A stretch of DNA of 64,000 nucleotides, taken from contig NW_026251709.1 of NCBI RefSeq assembly GCF_025024155.1, positions 744,001-808,000 on the forward strand, written 5' to 3'. A program made the position numbers and the translations under genes. Below the pieces are notes generated by a model. That model was not told the DNA's origin. It searched no databases and saw nothing but the letters and a program-made list of their open reading frames with translations. Source of the stretch: Gamsiella multidivaricata. Taxonomy: Eukaryota; Mortierellomycota; Mortierellomycetes; Mortierellales; Mortierellaceae. Shown here piece by piece: positions 40,826 through 62,106 of this stretch (positions within the stretch are counted from its first letter, which is position 1; every line of letters begins with the position of its first letter).

Positions 40826-41649
40826 TCTAAAATGAGATGCATATGTGTCGACAGGTGTAGACAGTTGCAGTAAGGAGAGAATGCTAAGAGGATGGAAAAA
40901 CGAGGCTTGGATTATATAACTCGTTATCTGGTCGTTCTCCTCGCAATCGGTGCATTTGAGAGGCTCCTTGTAGGGACGAGATGTTTAGATCCTTGTTTAA
41001 ATAACAGGTCTTTACTTTCTATTACATTTGCTTCCCTTTCTCCTGGATATGGGCGCCTGTAACTTCAACAGCGTAATGTCGCCTGCGTGTATCTGTTTGA
41101 TCGGTGGATCCTAGCAACGATTGTGTGAAGGTGCCACGACCTACGCTTAGATCCTATATTTAAGGCGGAAAATGAGATATAACGCCTTTCCATGCTGTTT
41201 TACTCGGCAACATTCTATTATATTACAATCCATAGAGGTATTCGTAGAGATTCAAAAGCGGTAATAAAAAATCAAGGCCCCATTAAAGGACAAGGGTGCT
41301 AGTAAAGCAGGTAATGCCAACAAGGCGCTACGACCTCGCCGGTGATGTATCCGCTCGCAGCGCTGGGCTACTGCGTGGGTGGTGATATCAGGAGCCATAG
41401 TACCCGTGCCAGTAACCATATACGTGCCAGTAGCGCCCTGAGGACCCGTAGTCATTATTTCAATGATAGCCTTGGGTCCTACAACAAGCATTCTTGTAGT
41501 TCTCATTGATACAGTATCTGTCTACCAGAAATCACCCAAATCAAGTAAAAAAGTGACTGGTTAGAATTCAGAATAGGTTGGGTGTTCGTGCACGTTATTT
41601 TTGTATGTTGAACTTACAAATTTTGAAAGAGGGTTCCGACCCCCTATGA
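40826..41649. other. Intergenic, possible small Cys exon
   Basis: No full gene is supported. On the minus strand a TGGTAG acceptor at about 41522 opens a short frame (DRYCINENYKNACCRTQGYH then stop, about 41454-41521) that looks like a last exon of a small Cys-rich protein. I found no first exon. Confidence 0.35.
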
Positions 41650-44600
41650 TTATGTTGATGGCATGAACTTGGCAGGTCGGCACTGGTTCTGAATTTGCGA
41701 CAGACACACGGTGGCAATGTTCTCAGAGCCGACAATATCGCGATCAAAGAACATTTGACAGCTTCGGCAGTACTTTGACCGCCTCTTGTCGGACTCCAAG
41801 AACGCCATACACTGGTCACGAGGGCACCGAGCACTGGTGTAGTACTCGTGCACCCCGACCACAGTGTGTCTCATAGCCTTTGCCTATCAGCAGCGTCAAG
41901 GAACAAACAAAAAGATGAGAAAAAGTTGCAGTGCAGATGAGAGATGGTATGCCACCCTTTTTTTTTTTTTCTCCTTCCTACCTTGCCGACAAATTTCTTC
42001 TCGAGTGCGCTATGCTTGCTTGGCAGGCCAGTTTGCGAATCAAAAGAGCCCAATCCTACCGCAAACACCACTTTTACACCATCCTGCGAGCTCAGCGGCT
42101 GACCAACAAAGTCCTTGCTGACGGCGAGGTCAAGCAAGGCCGCAACTGCGTAGTCATACGTTGCCTGTTGAGCCTTTTGAAGATCCCAGCGCTTCCTTAG
42201 CATTCACTGACTGTTGTAAAAGTTAAAAAGGCAGACTCTCGTGGTGGGCGCGGCAGTGCCGTCCATACCAGGCGCCTCCAGGTACGCCAGATATTCCTCG
42301 ATCTTCTCCACGGTAAATGAGGGCAGTCTTGCCTAAAGAACATCAATGCGTGCCGCGGCCTTCTGCTTTTCTAGGAGACGCTTGAAGAGCATATAAGGCC
42401 TGTAGAGGAATGCCCTGCGGATTCGTAAAGACTCTCTTTTCGTAGGTAAGGCGGGGTCGATTCTTGTCGCTGTCATTGTGTAAATCTCACCCGGGTCAAT
42501 GCCGATGACCACAGTATCGCCTGGTGGACAAGTGCCAGGAGAGTTGAAGTGCACCTCCACGTTTTCTAGGATCTTTGAACTTCGCTTCCAGTTGATGGTG
42601 TTGCAAGTGATATCGATCGTATCTGCGCATGATGTCGGAACAGATGAGGCTTCTGAGCTGGATGAGGACGAAACAGCCGCAGTAGGGTCTACGGGTGACA
42701 GTTGGTGTATCGACAGCCTCTGCCGCTTTGAACTTTCTGGCGTCGAAGACGGGAGCGTGATGCGTTTCTTTTTGGCGGGTCCTGCCGCAGCTGCGACCGG
42801 ATCTGTACCAGATTCGCCCCCTCCACTTTCAAGAAACGCGTCGTCGAGGTCATAGTCACCGTCAACATCGTGGAACAGGGTCACGTCCTCGTCGCCGTCG
42901 CCATCGTCGTCGTTGTCGTGCTCTTCTTCATCGTCGTCATCGCCCCTGATGCTTTGGCGGGGTGCTCGGCATCGCGTTGTCGTTGTGTGATGCGCAAGAA
43001 GATGCAACACCAGTCCGTTCGTGCAGATGATGCCCCGAAGCTTGAACCTTGTGTGGTACTGTCTGTCACTCTGAAACGAAACCTTCCTGTAATACCCGTC
43101 AAAGCGCGTCGCCGGGTCCAGTCTGTATAGCAGCTTCTCGATGAGGATCCCTTTCTTGCCGATGACCTTGGCTTCCGCAGCGTTGGATGTTGTATCGCTC
43201 AGCATTCGGACTATAATTGGCCGTGTCGTATTGCTTGTATAGAATAAATGGACAAGGTCCGCCTCTGACAAGAACACGAAGTCAGCTGCAAACTTTGCCT
43301 TGACAAAGTCTACAAACATGCGCTTCTCGGTATTCTTTTCGAAGAAGTAGTCGATCGGATTGACAGCTTCGGGGCGCTCTTCGTTCTCGGAAAACTATTA
43401 AAGAAATTTGAAGAGCTAATGGTCAACACTAGTGCTCCGAAAAGCAAGGAACACAACGGATACATCTTGCATACTCTTTAACATACCTTTGTGCCATAGT
43501 AATGGACTCGCACTGCATTGTAGACTGCCGCAACAGCAAGCTTCGAGACCGTCAAAGGGAACACCTCTGGTTCTCGTTGGCGAAAGGGGACAAAGCCGGT
43601 GAACGTCGTGTACGCTTCAAAGACACGTCGGGCATGGGTGGCTGTTGGTTGTGGTTGTGCCTGTACATATGCCTGTACTTGCGGTTGTGGGACGCCAGGG
43701 ACCAACGGCGTATTTTGAGTGCTCATTCTGCGCGCAGGGGCAACCGATACTCGAACAGCCTGGGAACCTCGTCCTTCTTGACCACTGCACAAGAATGTGT
43801 TGAGTGCAAAGTAGAAGGCCTTGCTGTCGATAATGTCTGCAATATCCTCCTTCTGCTGTGTCACGTCTGTCGCTGTGTCCTTGGAACGAACAAGCCGCGC
43901 GATATCCAGCGCAATAGCCTCGTACATATGCATCTGGATCGCGTTAAGGATCGCAACCGTTGAACGTAGCCTGTCTGAAAGGAACTTGCTTTCTGCAACC
44001 GAGATCTGATCCATTCGCTTTACGTTGGCCTGGATACCCCCACAGTGAGTGCCTTGGTTATATGCAGCTTGCGGAGGCGGCGGTTCGCTGCAGTTGCAGA
44101 AGTGGGCCGTGGGTTCGATGGGTCGGCAGAGCCCACCCCTTTCCGTTTTCTCGGCAGTGCCCCCTTCTTCCTCTTTTTCTTGTTTTTCTTCTTCATGACC
44201 GCCTTCCGAGTCTTGACGGGGGGCTTTGCTTTTGGCTGCGGGCGATCGTGAGGTACGGCAGTCGAGAAGTCAATCGATTGTCGCGGTAGGATCGATTTCT
44301 TGTCTGAAAAGATCGGCCGGAACTGGTTCCGCTTTGAGTTCCTCGCAACGTAGAAGGGAACCGCACTAGTAAATATACGCATACATCGCCATGCAAAAGG
44401 TGTTAGAGAACTTGATATCTGTACAACGCGTGCGTGAATGAAGTGGTGTCGCACTTAAATTACCTTTTACTCGCATGCTGATATGTAGCGACGGCAAATC
44501 GCTGCAGCTTGAGATGCTGGAACTGCGGTGCTGCACTGCTGAAATCAAAGCCGAGCATGTCCTCATCGGCGGCCTCATCTCCTGGTTGCAGTTGGAGCAC

Positions 44601-45502
44601 TTTCTCCTCGAGGTCCAAAAAGATGTCTTCCGATGGCTTGAATCGGCTCTGGTCGATAACCTCATGGGTTTTGATGGCTGCCATGAATCTGTAAGCATCG
44701 ATCATATGGCTGATATCGGGCGACTGGGGTAGAGCGCGGATGATCTCCAGGTTGCGAACTATTCCAAGGCCGGGAATGTTCTCGGTATAGTCGTTCTTGG
44801 ACACGATGGCCAGCAATGTCACATAGTCTGCGCTGGGAACCTGAAGTGCATTGGTAACACTCTCCTTGGTGTACAACGCGTAGGTCAGGCCGTAGAAGAT
44901 CGGCCGCAAAACCTTGGTGACCGACGGATATATCAACAGATCGGAATCTGCTGACACTACGAAGCTACCGGCTGTCATGGTCAGTGTGCGTGCAATGCAG
45001 GTGTCGGCCTCGGTCCTGCAAGTGCAGACAGAAAACCCTTTTCTCGTAAGGCATCCCGGAGTGTCTGCTTGGCTGCTGCATCAAATCTGTATACATCGCG
45101 GAAGCCCTTCTTGATCTTCGCTACTACGCTCTTCGAGGTCAATTGGCCGTTCGATGACTTCGTGCTCATGACTTTCAAGTCCGCGTGCAACTTCTTGAGG
45201 TCCGCTGTCAGTCTGTTCTTTCGCCTGATGTGCTCGTTCCGCTTCTGTTGGGATAGGGCGCCATCGATGTGAATCGTACATTGCGCAGGGGTAAAGTCCT
45301 TCGCCAAACGCGCTGCCATCGCGAGACCGACAGTTCGGACCTTGCTTGGATCGTAATCATCCGTGATCTGGCGAACGAGGGATCCATAAAACGCGCCGAA
45401 GAGGTCAACCTCAATAGCTTTGTTCTGGTAATCTTGAGGATCCGCGGCAACTGGATCCAAACCGCGCTTCTTCAGAGCACCGTAAAGGCCTCTTATGCCC
45501 AT
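41650..45502 (-). pseudogene. XPG-like nuclease fused to Fanzor RuvC nuclease
   Basis: Four exons are visible: 45502-44464, 44365-43487, 43394-41982 and 41883-41650. All borders are GT-AG. Exon 1 starts MGIRGLYGALKKRG and contains the XPG-I hallmark CRTEADTCIAR and then SFVVSADSDLLIYP and IPGLGIVRN, as in FEN1/XPG nucleases. Exon 2 has a Lys-rich NLS-like stretch and a helical region. Exon 3 has the Fanzor-type block SFQSDRQYHTRFKLRGIICTNG, the RuvC I motif VIGIDPGEIYT, FYNSQ and RKRWDLQKAQQATYDYA, and the RuvC II region VVFAVGLGSFDS. Exon 4 has VVGVHEYYTSARCP, the CxxC zinc ribbon KYCRSCQMFFDRDI and the RuvC III region. Lesions are a 1-base loss in a T4 run (45039-45042), a 1-base loss in a C5 run (44037-44041), TAG at 42333-42335 and TGA at 42204-42206. 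With these accounted for, frame sums agree across all exons at about 1,190 codons. This is the most unusual gene in the window. Confidence 0.75.
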
Positions 45503-45751
45503 GCTGTGATCACTATGGTGAGTTGAAAGCTTAGCAGTGTTAGTGAAACCCTCTCGTAAGGACGCTGAAGATATGGAAGGATAGGCTTGGAGGGTACATT
45601 ACCTTTTCTACAGGCGTATAGTATCTAGCGTGAAGGTGTATATGGATAGCGAACTGCGGGCAAAGGGCAATGAGGAGAAAGCATGATGAACGAAGGGAGC
45701 TGTGAAGTGTGTGGCAGAATACTTATAGGCGAGAAGCAATGTCTGCTTTCT
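45503..45751. other. Upstream flank of the XPG-Fanzor locus
   Basis: This is the probable promoter region of the minus-strand XPG-Fanzor locus. I see no coding sequence. Confidence 0.4.
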
Positions 45752-45890
45752 CACAATAAAAAAGACTTTCCACAATAAAGAAAGGCATTACCACAATAAC
45801 AAAGACTTTCCACAGTAAAAAAGGCATTGCCACAATAACAAAGACTTTCCACAGTAAAAAAAGGCATTGCCGCAATAACAAAAGGCTTTG
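45752..45890. repeat. Tandem 39-40 bp repeats upstream of XPG-Fanzor
   Basis: About 3.5 units are present. Each contains CACAATAACAAAGACTTTCC followed by an ACAGTAAAAAAGGCATTGC half. The second and third units are nearly identical. They lie about 250 bp upstream of the XPG-Fanzor start codon. Confidence 0.75.
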
Positions 45891-46143
45891 ATAAAGAGCC
45901 ATCACACTGATATATGTTAGTCGCTTGACACGAAGCACGATCAGTGTTATACAAGTAGCTTTGCCACGGCCTGACACAGATGTCCACCTACATCGCCATC
46001 ATCGCTGTTTCCAACGTACGCGGGGCAGACGCAAATCTAGATAGGTCGCTAGGGATGCAGTGGAGGATAGGGAAATCAGTCAAGTAGCACGGTCAACCTT
46101 CAAAGGACTAAAGCCTATGAGAACTTTTGCTATTAAATTAATT
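45891..46143. other. Intergenic, nothing seen
   Basis: A short interval between the tandem repeats and repeat R copy 1. No motif was recognised. Confidence 0.4.
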
Positions 46144-46540
46144 ACGGGGAAGAGCATCACTCCAGGATAAAAGAATAAACGGTCTGGTTCATGAACCAGT
46201 CTCTTCTCCACATATATATCTTGTATCACACATTGTATTCATCCAGATTGTCCGGATAACACCGCATCTTCGACAGGTACTGACTGCCGTCGTCAGCAAC
46301 CCACGCAACGAGATACAATCAACAGAGAATGCCAAGCCTGATCATTCGCCACCTTTGCGCTATCAATTGCAACATTTCCCCGATCTCCGATCGTCTCATT
46401 ATTGAGCATCCGTCATCGGCTTACCCTCGTGAAACGGCATTATAAAAGTACAATGGGGGCCTGATCAGCGAACATTGCCATTCAACGACTCCGGAGGGGT
46501 GGACTTCATTGTCACGACTTTTCACTTCATCAGATATCAT
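46144..46540 (+). repeat. Dispersed repeat R, copy 1 (solo-LTR-like)
   Basis: These 397 bp match 53643-54073 in the same orientation, from the shared GGGGAAGAGCATC start to the CATCAGATATCA end. Both copies carry ACGGCATTATAAA, a TATA-like motif, near the right end. No coding sequence is present. An LTR or non-autonomous element fits. Confidence 0.65.
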
Positions 46541-46656
46541 AGAGTCCTGGCCAAAAATTCGAGCACACCGTAACACTTTTTTGTATTCGCTACGCTCATT
46601 AAAAAGAAAAAATCGGCTTTATTGAGGAGAAAGCTACGGAGCTGAGTCACAGCCAA

Positions 46657-52344: not shown

Positions 52345-55129
52345 ATGAGCACCTCACCTTCGAACCAGCAAGCTTCCAAAAATCAGGCCACAAGGCAGAC
52401 ACAAAAACGTCGAGCAGCAAAGCGCCAGATCTCAGAGGATGTAGAAAAAGAGGAAGAAGGAGGAGAGGAAATACTTGTGAGGCGGCGCCGTCGTCTTCAC
52501 GCCGCTCAAGGCAAGGAACTTACAAGACCATCATCGTTGCTTTGGTTCCCACGCATGTCATCCTTGATTTTGCTGACCTTTGACAGCATGACGTAGAAGG
52601 TCGAGGCATGATTTCCCTAGATCAGTTGATTGAAGCTGAGGAAGACCTGGAGGGAAGTCCGGTTGCTGAAGAAGATTCAGAGGGTGAAGAGCCACAAGTC
52701 GATAAACGAACCAGAGACCATGGAAACAATTGTATGTGCTGCGCTCACCCAGAAGTTGAGTAACCATGCTGCTGTGCATGCGTTCATTAATCTCCATATC
52801 TATTTTTTTTCCCTCTGGCTCCAGATTTGGCTTCAACGATAGACGAGTTAGTATGTTCGCCAGAACTTTTACAGGAAAAGAGAAATATAGATTGTGGCAG
52901 CGTAGATGAAGCCATTGCTCGCTTCCAGGAGAACCAGCTTCTTACCAACAAGCTCAGGCTGGAAGAGTCGAGACTGAAGCCAAACAGCCAGAAGAGCTAT
53001 AGAACATATTTAGGCTTTTGGAAGGTATGCGGATGGAAGGCCATGGTTTGTGCATACTCTCGCGTGCTCATGACACGACATAACCGAACAACTGGCTCAT
53101 TATGTCTAGGCTTGGTGCGACGCGAAATACGCGTGGGAAATGGGACGGCGCTACGATATATGCGAACTCAAGGCGCTTAGGTTCTTCTCTGAGTTCATGT
53201 TTAAAAGGGAGACCAAGAAATCCTTCTATGCGAACCAGAGGAAGGACGTCATTACTCCTTACAGAATTGAAGCTGGATCGGAAGGTCGAACGATCGATTT
53301 GAGTGAAGGTACGGTCCATGTGATAGACAAGCGCTTTTCGCCACCTCTCAGGCTTTCGTTATTCCTCGACACTCTTCTGACATCTGATATATTGCTATTC
53401 AGTCCTCGAGGTCGTTCCAGTGGACACAAAAGGAAGGAGAATGCTCACGATCCCTTGTGGCTCTGGCAGTAATGAGCAAGCGCTCAAGGCGATTATCCAT
53501 CTGCAGAAGTGACTGGCTTGCCGCAAAGTACTCCCTGTAACTGAGAGAAGTGTTCGAGAGAGCGGGACCATTGCCAACGCCCTCGAAGAGTACTGAGGTG
53601 TAGTAAATGAGAATCAGTTGGTTGTTCTTGCAAAGTTAATATTAGATCACGGGGAAGAGCATCGCCCCCAGAATAAAAGAATAAACGGTCCGGTACCTGA
53701 ACCAGAGTCTTCTTTCCACCTAAATCATTTGTATCACACATTGTATTCGTCCAGATTGTCCGGATAACACCGCATCAACGACAGGTACTGACTACCACCG
53801 TCAGTAACCCATGCAACGAGATACGATCAACAGGGAATGCCGATCCTGATCATTCGCCACCTTTGCACCGTCAATCGCTCTTATTTAGACGTTGTACTTG
53901 CCCCGCAGCGCTTCCCCGATTACCGATCGTCTCATTGAGCATCCGACATCGGCCCACCCTCGTGAAACGGCATTATAAAGGTACAACGGAGGCCTGATCA
54001 GCGACTATTGGCATACAACGACTCCAGAGGGGTGGACTTTATTGTCACGACTCCTCACCTCATCGGACATCACAATATGCGAACTCCTTGCAACTACCCC
54101 AGTCATTCCCAAAGGAATATAGTCCTAGCTCGCACCATTTAGCTAAACAGATCCCCATATTTATTCCTTTCCATTTACGTCTAGTCTATTTTGCCTTTGT
54201 GTTCTTACATTCCGATCTAAAGGAGGACCCTGCGCCGCGAACCAGTAAGTGACCGAAGCACACCCTTGCCGAAGTCCTATTCGCGTGGTAACTCCTGTTG
54301 TAAATAGAACTAATGGTAGAAGTTATAGAACCCGTTAGTAGACCCCCTACACCGCAGTACAGACAGAGCATTGTGATGGGAACTCTGAAGCACGGCGACG
54401 ACATGACATTCAGGGGCGAAATCAGCAGGAGCTACAGCATTGAGGAGCACTTGCGCATATTGCTGGGCGCCTGGGGCCAGCCGCTGTCAATCCAGTCACC
54501 TTGGCAGAGGGAGCATATGGCGTACGCGACAAGGCACGCCATGGCATTGCGGGACGAGGAGATCCGAAAACTGAATCTGTCTGACTGCTATGTGGATCAG
54601 ATACTCAATCAGGATGGAGGATCGCAAGCCGTGACAATGCTGGTGTTCACCACCCATCGTTCGAAGACGAACAAGAGTGGGCGACCACAGTATGACTGCG
54701 CCCTCAGGCATGAAGATGTTCGCCGCTGTAGTGTTGGTGCTATGGGGTTCTACCTTTATGACCGGTTCGAAGTAAGTGCGATGGTTTTGTTTCCCATTAG
54801 TTAATGCAAAGCTCGATGTCGCTGTATAACTAATTCATATTTCTTTTCGCAACAGATCTGGAAGGAGGACAAGATTAATTTCGATGAGCCTTCCTGGCGT
54901 AGTATTAAGACGTTGAAAGGCACAGGGCTTGACCGAACAAAGGAAATCTCGTATACCGTAGGGCACAAGCATACGACGGAACTCTTTGCCAGGCAACAGC
55001 TGAGCAGCGATGTCAAAGCACATGCTAACCGCCACAGCGCAGCTCTTGAGGCTCAGAGGTTAGGTTTGACAGACGATTCGATCAAGGTGGGAGGTCGATG
55101 GACTCAACGTGGCAGCAAATTGCACAGCT
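52345..55129 (+). pseudogene. Crypton-like tyrosine recombinase gene, broken
   Basis: Exon-like blocks in order are an ATG exon with basic sequence from 52345, an acidic exon (about 52588-52729), and an exon at about 52825-53022 ending KPNSQKSYRTYLGFWK. Then come 53110-53308 (AWCDAKYAWEMGRRYD ... ALRFFSEFMFKRE), one from about 53401 with a TGA nonsense codon at about 53509-53511, one from about 54358 to 54771 and one from 54856. The last two hold the catalytic domain: an Arg region (RHAMALRDEEIRKLNLSDC), a KTNKSGR segment, the HxxR box in KAHANRHSAALEAQRLG, GGRWTQRG, and SY at the very edge. This matches fungal Crypton-type tyrosine recombinases. A 431-bp repeat sits in the middle and a Tc1 element starts right after the C-terminal Tyr codon region. 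Confidence 0.65.
53643..54073 (+). repeat. Dispersed repeat R, copy 2, inside the recombinase gene
   Basis: This direct copy of 46144-46540 has about 30 extra bases in the middle. AATAT occurs immediately before (53638-53642) and after (54074-54078), a candidate 5-bp target-site duplication. It separates the N-terminal and catalytic halves of the Crypton-like gene. Confidence 0.65.
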
Positions 55130-55387: not shown

Positions 55388-56407
55388 TTAATACTCGATA
55401 GGGCCTCCCTTACTTCTGTAGACCATCGCGATGCGCTGTGGCATGCTATCGTACAGTTTATGGATAAAGTCTATGGGAATATTTGTCCATATGTCCTGCA
55501 CTCTCTCCCATAGTTCTTCCATGTTCACTGGTGCCTTTGGGTAATGTCCGAGCTTGCGTTTAACGTGCGTCCACACATGCTCGATCGAATTAAGGTCTGC
55601 TGAGTTGGCAGGCCACTGCAGGGTTTTGATCTTGGCCTTGGAAAGGAACTTTTGGACGGCTTTTGCGGTGTGAACCTTGGCATTGTCATGCTGATAAACA
55701 ACTTTTGTCGGATCCATGTCATACCCATCCCTGGATTGGAGAACATAGGAATTGAGGACATCCACGTACGCCTCAGCGGTGACCCTGTCCCGGATCCAAC
55801 AGGCATCTCCTACGCCGTAATAGGTGATACAACCCCAGATCATCATTTTACCACCGCCGCCTTGCTTGGTTTTCTTGGTTTGAAATGTCCGGATCGTCTT
55901 GCCCTCGGGCCTTTTGTAGTAGAACTCCCTTCCAAAGGACCCAATCCTGCTAATTATGCTTTCGTCCGAGAACATTATATCACGCCATTGCTCAGTAGTC
56001 CAATGTAAATGGTCGCGAGCGAATTTGTACCGATTCTCGATTTGATCGTCCGTCAGATCAGGTTTCTTAGGCTTGACGTACGCTTTCAGTCCTTGCTGCC
56101 TTAGATAGTTCCGGATCGTCTGTACATGGACATGAACACCTTGTGTCGAAAGGACAAGTTCCTGACCATCATGTGGAGTTAATAGTTGTCCGATTGACAT
56201 TTTTCGGGCTAAAAGAGTCTTCGTGGTCTTGGAAACCTTTGAAGGCCTGCCTCTTTTCTTGATGGGGATGTAGTACTTGTATAGTCTCCTAACCTTGGAT
56301 ACCATTCCGACCGATATACGAAGGGTTTGGGAGATCTCACGAACAGTTTTTCCTTGTTTGAGGAGCGCAAATGCTTTCGCTTTGGTTGATTCCGGCAGAG
56401 ACTTCAT
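55388..56407 (-). CDS. Tc1-type transposase (DD34E)
   Basis: The intact frame of 339 residues starts at the ATG at 56407 (MKSLPESTKAKAFALL). An open stretch upstream to 56533 has no needed domain. The N-terminal helix-turn-helix (TVREISQTLRISVGMVSKV), the GRPSKV hinge (GRPR-like motif) and the second HTH (HVHVQTIRNYLRQQGL) precede the catalytic triad. The triad is D in MFSDES, D in YQHDNAKVHTA and E in WPANSADLNSIEHVW, with 34 residues between the last two, as in Tc1. It binds the inverted repeats and catalyses cut-and-paste transposition at TA. All catalytic residues are present, so the element could be active. Confidence 0.93.
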   Translation of the reverse strand: MKSLPESTKAKAFALLKQGKTVREISQTLRISVGMVSKVRRLYKYYIPIKKRGRPSKVSKTTKTLLARKMSIGQLLTPHDGQELVLSTQGVHVHVQTIRNYLRQQGLKAYVKPKKPDLTDDQIENRYKFARDHLHWTTEQWRDIMFSDESIISRIGSFGREFYYKRPEGKTIRTFQTKKTKQGGGGKMMIWGCITYYGVGDACWIRDRVTAEAYVDVLNSYVLQSRDGYDMDPTKVVYQHDNAKVHTAKAVQKFLSKAKIKTLQWPANSADLNSIEHVWTHVKRKLGHYPKAPVNMEELWERVQDIWTNIPIDFIHKLYDSMPQRIAMVYRSKGGPIEY

Positions 56408-56526
56408 GTTAAGGAGCAAAGTTGCTGAGAGTGAATATGAAGGGGAGTGCAGTGTAGCGGTAGTGTTTAATTGACGAGTGAGGATGTAAAGTACAGAGAA
56501 TGGAACTATTGAGGATGAAGTTCTTA

Positions 56527-56737
56527 TATCCAAAAAATAAAGTTCATATGGATATAAGACTCTAGAATTACATAGAAATCCATAGAGTCATTAGATCCTT
56601 CTCTAATTTCCATAGTGGAGGATGTAAAACCAAGGTATAGCTCCCCGAGATTCTGGAGCAATCAAATGGGCGAACAAGGAATTATGAAGGGAATTGTCGA
56701 ATTTTGCAAAATCATGTGAACTTTTTGTTGCGCACTG
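56527..56737. repeat. Right terminal inverted repeat of Tc1 element
   Basis: This is the inverse of 55131-55340 and ends GCGCACTG before the TA target dinucleotide. Confidence 0.85.
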
Positions 56738-60700: not shown

Positions 60701-61703
60701 GTCTTCTAGAGTTGAGATGGAGCGTATTTTCTACCAAGTAGGGCTCTTGTACCATCTCACGGCTCATATGCGCCTCCTGTCGATCGGCGTACTACGGTGT
60801 AAGGCCCTTCATAACGAGGTGATAGGTTATCGCCTCTGATTGCATCGAGGGTCATAATCTTTGCGCCTTCAGGAAAGTCGTTATGTAGAATAGTCGCATT
60901 AAAGCGCTCAATCATTTTCTGTTGTGTTCCTCTCGATCTTTTGTCGATTGCGGGAAAGATGATTGTCGTCATATAATCGAGACGTTTACAGAGTCCTTCA
61001 TGGGTAAGCAGTTGGTCCTTTCGTTGGAGAAGTTATGGAACCCATTAAATTTTCTTGCAAAAAATAGAGAGAACGGCGATGAGTTGTGCAGCGCCACTAC
61101 GCGGGTGTTCATCGCCAGTTGAGCCATGGGAACATGTTCGTCCCAGGTATCACTCTTCTGTTTGAATTCTTTTTTGATAATATCTACGGCAACTTTGACG
61201 TGCCTTTCTGCGACGCCATTGCCTCTAGGATGATATGGGATGACTAAGCGGTGGTGTGTGCCCATCTCAGTGCTGATAGTGTTCATGAGAGCGTTCACAA
61301 ATTCAGTGCCATTGTCAGATTGCAAACCACGCGGAAAACCAATGAGGCAAAATATGTCAAAGAGGGCGCGCCCGATGGTGATTGCTTGCTTATCATGTAT
61401 TAGTTTCAGAAACACGAAGCGCGTGCACACATCGACTACTATCAGAAGGCATTGATTACCATTAGCTGAAGTAGGGAATTTCCCAGCGAGATCTGTGGCC
61501 ATGTGTTCTCGAGGCAATTGAGCGTGGATGGCTTTCAATAGATGATAACCCTTTTGAGCAATGTTGTATCTTTGACAATCCGGGCATTTCTTAACCCAGG
61601 TCAGGCAATCTTCTGCTAGTCGCGGCCATGTAACATGATCAGCATGAATATTCTTCGCCATGACATTAGTGCCAAAATGACCAAGAGAATGGGCTTTGTC
61701 CAA
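60701..61703 (-). pseudogene. Ty3/gypsy integrase remnant
   Basis: The minus-strand frame from 61703 carries the HHCC zinc finger end (CPDCQRYN) and the integrase core. The core's first D lies in MATDLAGKFP, the second in LQSDNGTEF and the E in NGVAERHVKV, so the DDE triad is intact. The frame shifts near 60985-60992 into RLDYMTTIIFPAIDKRSR and a GPY/F-like module (RYEGPYTVVRRSTGGAYEP). A TGA follows, with GTRALLGRKYAPSQL after it in the same frame. No reverse transcriptase, gag or LTR was found nearby, so only the 3' part of pol remains. This is a fungal retrotransposon, not an infectious virus. Confidence 0.8.
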
Positions 61704-62106
61704 TACAGTTTTAGCACGGAGGGCGGATTATTCTCAAAGGAAGAAGATTATTCACCATGGAATTTTAAAGACCAATGTGCTAGTCTATCTCTGCCCAGGA
61801 CAACCAATTTTTGTTGCTAAAACTACCTATAATAAACTACACAAAATAAATCATCACTGAGCCTTTCTATTGCTTTTCATTACCATGGCTATTGCCATAC
61901 TCAGCTTTTCCTTTTAGGTGACGAATACGATGGCTTTGCTCCTGAAGATGCTCCACCGCGGGCACGCTCCTCTACATCCGTACTTGTTCCACTAGTTGAT
62001 ATGTTCCTAGTACAAGTCCTTTCACATCCACCACTTCGCACTTTTTTCCATCCACCTCTGTAATGAAACGCATCTTCGATTATTTTATATTTAGAATATA
62101 CATGCC
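61704..62106. other. Gap, no gene seen
   Basis: The flanks of the integrase remnant and of the GT34 fragment. No exon is supported. Confidence 0.4.

Follow-up and report, generated by a model that had tools for sequence, protein, structure and literature searches.

Whether a nuclease of the Fanzor type and a flap nuclease of the XPG/FEN1 type can be made as one protein is the question raised by a four-exon gene, combining an XPG/FEN1-type nuclease with a Fanzor RuvC/zinc-ribbon nuclease, at 45502-41650 on the reverse strand of a 64,000-nucleotide stretch of the Gamsiella multidivaricata genome (contig NW_026251709.1, positions 744,001 to 808,000; hereafter the window). Enzymes of the TnpB/Fanzor/Cas12 line are known to cut with one RuvC site, and the guide RNA of a Fanzor is read from the end of its element, while XPG/FEN1 nucleases cut flaps and bubble junctions. 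Fanzors are described as RNA-guided (Saito 2023, PMC10432273; here and below, citations refer to excerpts of the papers concerned). Our reading, to which we assign a probability of about 0.6, is that the locus represents one decayed copy of a mobile element and that the main gene of this element would encode a single spliced polypeptide made up of an N-terminal XPG/RAD2/FEN1 nuclease, a basic linker and a C-terminal nuclease of the Fanzor1 RuvC type.

The gene and its copies

The exon coordinates, strand and splice junctions proposed in the initial annotation were borne out and are collected in Table 1 together with the limits of the element. Mapping of the least damaged copy, L026, onto the window located the frame changes of exons 1 and 2, in agreement with the two frame losses that had been described, and the two in-frame stops of exon 3 have to be added to them. 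Judged from its letters, the window copy of the XPG-Fanzor gene is a pseudogene, because sense codons stand at both stop places in all 12 of the other copies that have them. The protein length of about 1,190 codons given earlier can be compared with the 1,174 codons that L026 yields over all exons, with one stop. None of the 14 copies examined in the window family reads intact through the exon model, the remaining 13 having 9 to 49 stops each, mostly downstream of frame breaks or insertions. Among 14 aligned copies GT..AG is preserved at most splice sites, the exceptions being the AG of intron 1 (absent in L023 and L025), the GT of intron 2 (absent in L029), the GT of intron 3 (absent in L032) and the end of exon 3, which is deleted in L023 and L034. 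A comparison of intron with exon divergence inside the family gave no clear difference, the gap figure for exon 1 being inflated by one copy's large insertion.

Table 1. Features of the XPG-Fanzor gene and its element, in window coordinates.
Feature	Position	Strand	Evidence
Exon 1: XPG/RAD2/FEN1-type nuclease domain, one frame change	44464..45502	-	RAD2 profile 1.1e-10; family HMM; frames
Exon 2: basic linker (about 44225-44130) and N-terminal part of Fanzor half, one frame change	43487..44365	-	gene model, frames, sequence
Exon 3: Fanzor half, RuvC-I GIDPGE (about 42506-42489), two in-frame stops (42335-42333, 42206-42204)	41982..43394	-	
Exon 4: TnpB/Fanzor zinc ribbon, repositioned glutamate, RuvC-III RD; Pfam match 41871-41716	41650..41883	-	PF07282 1.1e-8
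Short tandem repeats, unit about 40 bp, 5' of gene	45745..45882	-	same repeats in L026
Stretch homologous to other element copies (window copy; left end short of longest copies)	41510..46541	-	blastn vs 14 other 10-kb stretches
Right terminus of element, GGTAGACAGATACTGTA	41510..41526	-	comparison of copies

What had been described as one locus does contain the gene, and is in fact one copy of a multi-copy mobile element with homology over about 46541-41510. In a search of the 37.5 Mb genome (180 contigs) the combined matches to exons 3 and 1 revealed 14 further places, mostly at 77-94% protein identity, and 15 stretches of 10 kb, the window's included, were compared. The right end of the element is fixed and the flanks beyond it differ among copies, save for those on C139 and C171 (L029 and L030), which lie in a common 9.7-kb duplication where element and right flank are 98% identical. 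The left flanks of these two differ, pointing to a duplication that starts at the left end of the element. The last 16 bases of the right end occur at 14 places in the genome (11 exact, 3 with one mismatch; control 0), of which 12 are copies compared here and the other two lie on C99. The left end is variable, and five copies (L023, L026, L029, L030 and L034) have a common one, 0.3 to 1.3 kb past that of the window copy.

It is in this left part that a likeness to fungal Cryptons is found, since in L023, L026, L029 and L030 it shares 92-98% identity with the 5' part of the tyrosine-recombinase gene of L051, which matches NDC10_II (6.9e-9 and 1.4e-8) and GCR1_C (1.3e-8), domains that we take to be markers of fungal Cryptons. 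Unlike fungal Cryptons, the XPG-Fanzor elements have no complete tyrosine-recombinase gene, only its 5' part being present in these four copies and none of it in the window copy. Because the longest copies carry the truncated start of a Crypton recombinase, the family looks non-autonomous and Crypton-associated. No terminal inverted repeats were found in L026; TACTGT is present at both element ends in two of four copies, the other two having GACTGT and GACAGT at the left end. Cryptons are described as having no terminal inverted repeats, with short direct repeats at their ends.

Other features of the window and of related loci were recorded along the way. A match to NDC10_II (2.1e-11, one stop inside) at 54508-55110 on the forward strand represents the remains of a Crypton-type recombinase, and long open reading frames at 55388-56587 and 60969-61727, both on the reverse strand, presumably correspond to a transposase of the Tc1/mariner type and an integrase of a retroelement. 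At 1898-2056 on the reverse strand there is a second fragment of a Fanzor zinc ribbon (PF07282 3.2e-4, family HMM 2.6e-15), with no XPG match near it. In L047 a tandem repeat of about 278-bp units at 99% identity (positions 1-979) adjoins a Crypton copy.

The two nuclease halves

The assignment of exons 3 and 4 to a Fanzor RuvC nuclease with a zinc ribbon, made in the initial annotation, holds. Pfam searches with the window's own pieces are significant for the zinc ribbon of exon 4 only (Table 1), and a profile built from seven zinc-ribbon rows matches mimivirus L79 (3.1e-9), LaTranC (8e-5), the Spizellomyces Fanzor SpuFz1 (1e-4) and the Guillardia Fanzor1 GtFz1 (5.8e-4), so that solved Fanzors are reached at 5.8e-4 or better. 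Among the 26 matches of this profile at E up to 0.1, 19 are of the TnpB/Fanzor/Cas12 type; the remainder, 7 zinc-binding proteins without relation to that type, score 0.008 or weaker. Compared by itself with solved structures, the Fanzor half of L026 gave Cas12f1 as its best match at 0.14.

The motifs place this half with Fanzor1, for which the pattern D-X(125,275)-[TS][TS]xx-C4 zinc finger-X(5,50)-RD has been given (Bao and Jurka 2013, PMC3627910) along with DPG at RuvC-I and a glutamate placed six residues ahead of the zinc finger (Yoon 2023, PMC10711439). The likeness comprises the RuvC-I aspartate, the TS ahead of a four-cysteine ribbon, the repositioned glutamate, the RuvC-III RD and residence in varied transposons. 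The four cysteines, the TS and the repositioned glutamate are invariant in all seven rows and RD is kept in five (CD in L038, RG in L041), while the D-to-TS spacing of 183 in L026 falls inside the Fanzor1 range of 125-275. RuvC-I reads DPG in the window, L026, L027 and L044 and DPD in L022; the ten other rows have DAG, DIG, DLG or DAR, a departure from the published DPG rule in which most of the diverged relatives, with DAG, DIG or DLG, differ from Fanzor1. For the right end of the element, where a structured guide RNA was looked for, there is no Rfam match at the gathering score and no significant fold, with a z of -0.24 and 0 of 28 compensatory pairs.

Exon 1 had been called an XPG-type nuclease, and this too is upheld. 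The window pieces score 0.096 for XPG_N and 0.037 for XPG_I, both under the Pfam cut-off. A 12-piece profile built from related pieces of the same genome reaches RAD2 at 1.1e-10 as its best match to solved structures, EXO1 at 1.2e-6 and also XPG and FEN1, all 30 of the matches listed at E up to 0.1 being of the RAD2/XPG/EXO1/FEN1 type. With a smaller profile 33 of 34 matches at E up to 1 belong to the XPG family, and a single sequence finds RAD2 at 1.5e-4 plus four unrelated chains at 0.5-1. PF00867 is matched at E up to 0.1 by each of the five I-region pieces, most strongly at 4.3e-6 and at 0.02 for the window family, and the family HMM, a model built from close relatives, matches the window XPG pieces at 1.1e-94 and 1.6e-32. 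The resemblance to XPG/RAD2/FEN1/EXO1 nucleases lies in the I-region profile and the acidic motifs; unlike those enzymes, the present domains are much diverged (about 25-40% to one another) and fused to a Fanzor. Structure predictions yielded no usable model, the mean pLDDT being 43.0 for the XPG exon (12 rows) and 38.2 for a relative's RuvC exon (14 rows).

Does the XPG half still cut? The best-surviving of the rival explanations accepts the fused protein and holds that its XPG domain is a DNA-binding platform only, no longer a nuclease. The decay of the copies is in keeping with such a loss, as are the replacement of TEAD by FQAD in the XPG motif of L043 and L044 and an asparagine within the DSD motif of L029. 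Against it, the acidic I-region positions E, D, D, D and D, which we take to be the metal ligands of FEN1, are invariant in five representatives (the window family, L038, L039, L040 and L041), and pN/pS between diverged lineages is 0.24-0.39 for the XPG pieces, a rough figure with synonymous sites near saturation. We regard a platform role of this kind as unlikely for the domain in general. In the L043/L044 family, taken separately, the XPG site is possibly inactive, given FQAD in place of TEAD. For the RuvC exons pN/pS between diverged lineages is 0.29-0.38, with synonymous sites again near saturation. Among close pairs the values are 0.43 and 0.84 for XPG, the latter from two window-family XPG exons, and 0.41-0.57 for RuvC, so that recent copies look nearly unconstrained.

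Pairing and probable joining of the halves

In order to establish how often the two halves occur together, the matches of two diverged XPG queries were merged into 94 XPG-like loci, and a zinc ribbon or RuvC exon no more than 6.5 kb away was taken as Fanzor evidence. Fanzor sequence lies downstream on the same strand at 69 of the 94, pairs that are not independent since 14 of the 94 belong to the window family and related families are clustered; control counts are 4 of 94 upstream and 10 of 94 for the opposite strand. When zinc-ribbon matches only are counted, 54 of 93 XPG loci are paired, where about 0.8 would be expected by chance and controls give 3 and 6, and chance pairing is ruled out by these figures. 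The pair on C25 joins two different neighbouring elements, the right end of the C25 element falling between them. Nine genome matches to PF00867 exceed the cut-off, and each of the five weakest is followed 3.0-3.1 kb downstream by a same-strand PF07282 match; the four strong ones are presumably cellular repair nucleases. A pairing seen in dozens of related loci is no accident of one place, and homologues of exon 1 do adjoin RuvC or zinc-ribbon sequence within this genome.

Seen from the Fanzor side, XPG is present at 69 of 141 merged loci and 72 of 141 have no XPG match. A Fanzor without XPG as a true short form finds no example in the sole copy looked at, C12, which lacks XPG because its contig ends there. 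L060 (on C12) and L045 (on C140), two copies of a single XPG-Fanzor family with 99.7% identity, both stop at a contig end, which reflects either an assembly break or a chromosome-end location. The 141 Fanzor-like places in 37.5 Mb are, to our knowledge, an unusually large number for one genome. Viral contigs searched with window exon 3 and with the XPG profile gave no relative, and none of 4 TnpB-like zinc-ribbon relatives in such contigs has an XPG match in the 8-10 kb covered.

Pairing leaves two arrangements to be weighed, one spliced gene or two neighbouring genes, an XPG nuclease and a separate Fanzor, that moved together in one element. In the window family the XPG frame reaches a stop codon at the splice site and an ATG ahead of the second frame is retained in 14 of 14 copies, so this family taken alone is compatible with two genes. 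In L038, L039, L040 and L041, which represent three lineages (L039 and L041 form one, at about 73% DNA identity), a phase-2 intron of 89-129 nt allows an in-frame join of the two halves, the splice sites having been placed by eye and not from transcripts. In three of these four the second frame lacks an ATG ahead of the post-splice segment, the exception being L038, where moreover use of the first acceptor-like AG would break the frame and an acceptor further on was chosen; L041 has one internal stop. In L043 and L044 the XPG frame continues through a stretch rich in Arg and Lys, and only about 100 nt separates the XPG and Fanzor halves. Two genes appear improbable to us and the halves very probably form one spliced, fused protein, the conserved ATG and the splice of L038 lowering that likelihood slightly. 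The fusion proposed in the initial annotation is supported by the paired loci and by these in-frame joins. We consider as established, at the level of sequence, that both halves are present, that dozens of loci have them in this order, strand and spacing, and that in three further lineages the frames are joinable at phase 2.

Mechanism, precedents and meaning

The functions suggested in the initial annotation for the fusion, flap processing during transposition or replacement of Fanzor's own activity, are conjectural. In the role that we propose for the XPG domain, a guide taken from the flank next to the right end of the element would direct the Fanzor half to a site where it opens an R-loop, and the XPG half would cut or trim DNA at the R-loop junction or at broken ends. 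Repair would then copy the element back into the emptied site, or the ends might be shaped for recombination. We put this scheme, guide-set R-loop opening coupled to XPG cutting or trimming for copy-back or end shaping, at somewhat less than an even chance.

The XPG domain might instead serve the recombinase side, for example by resolving flaps or gaps left by Crypton excision or replication, with no part in RNA-guided cutting. Crypton recombinase remains are present in the same element, and Crypton recombinases are known among the partners of Fanzor1 (Yoon 2023, PMC10711439). The domain, however, adjoins the Fanzor and not the recombinase, and the L051 Crypton has no window-family XPG match within its 4.6 kb, which makes a recombinase-side function an improbable account.

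The closest described layout is that of MCi-2 from Mucor circinelloides, with a fixed 3' part coding for Fanzor, variable 5' parts and, in one subfamily, a Crypton transposase without its C-terminus (Bao and Jurka 2013, PMC3627910). The present element resembles it in the fixed Fanzor-coding 3' part, the variable 5' parts and the shortened Crypton gene. MCi-2 has target duplications of 11-12 bp, whereas none were seen by eye in copies of the present element, and the excerpt describing MCi-2 does not state an XPG domain in its 6-kb part. Given this layout and the Crypton partners reported by Yoon, the link between Fanzor and Crypton is not new. What sets the present gene apart from Fanzor1 is the N-terminal XPG nuclease domain, XPG being unmentioned in the excerpts on Fanzor1 from Bao and Jurka 2013 (PMC3627910), Saito 2023 (PMC10432273) and Yoon 2023 (PMC10711439). 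In the literature searched, outside which most subscription papers fall, Fanzor does not appear together with XPG, nor with Mortierella; TnpB and XPG occur together in one paper on Cas12a, and Fanzor and flap endonuclease in two papers.

More tentative still is the idea that these genes form a clade of RNA-guided nucleases with two live sites of unrelated fold in one chain, a RuvC site and an XPG site that cuts R-loop junctions or trims ends. If true, such a two-site enzyme would make breaks different from those left by Cas12, TnpB or Fanzor, and would have been maintained while dozens of diverged elements spread through a single fungal genome. A natural fusion to a flap/bubble nuclease, inherited repeatedly, would provide a second route by which an R-loop can be cut or processed. 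It would also offer a clue to what Fanzors do for eukaryotic transposons, together with a dual-nuclease enzyme that can be tested, and suggests that other fungal Fanzors may conceal domains in their 'highly variable' N-terminal halves.
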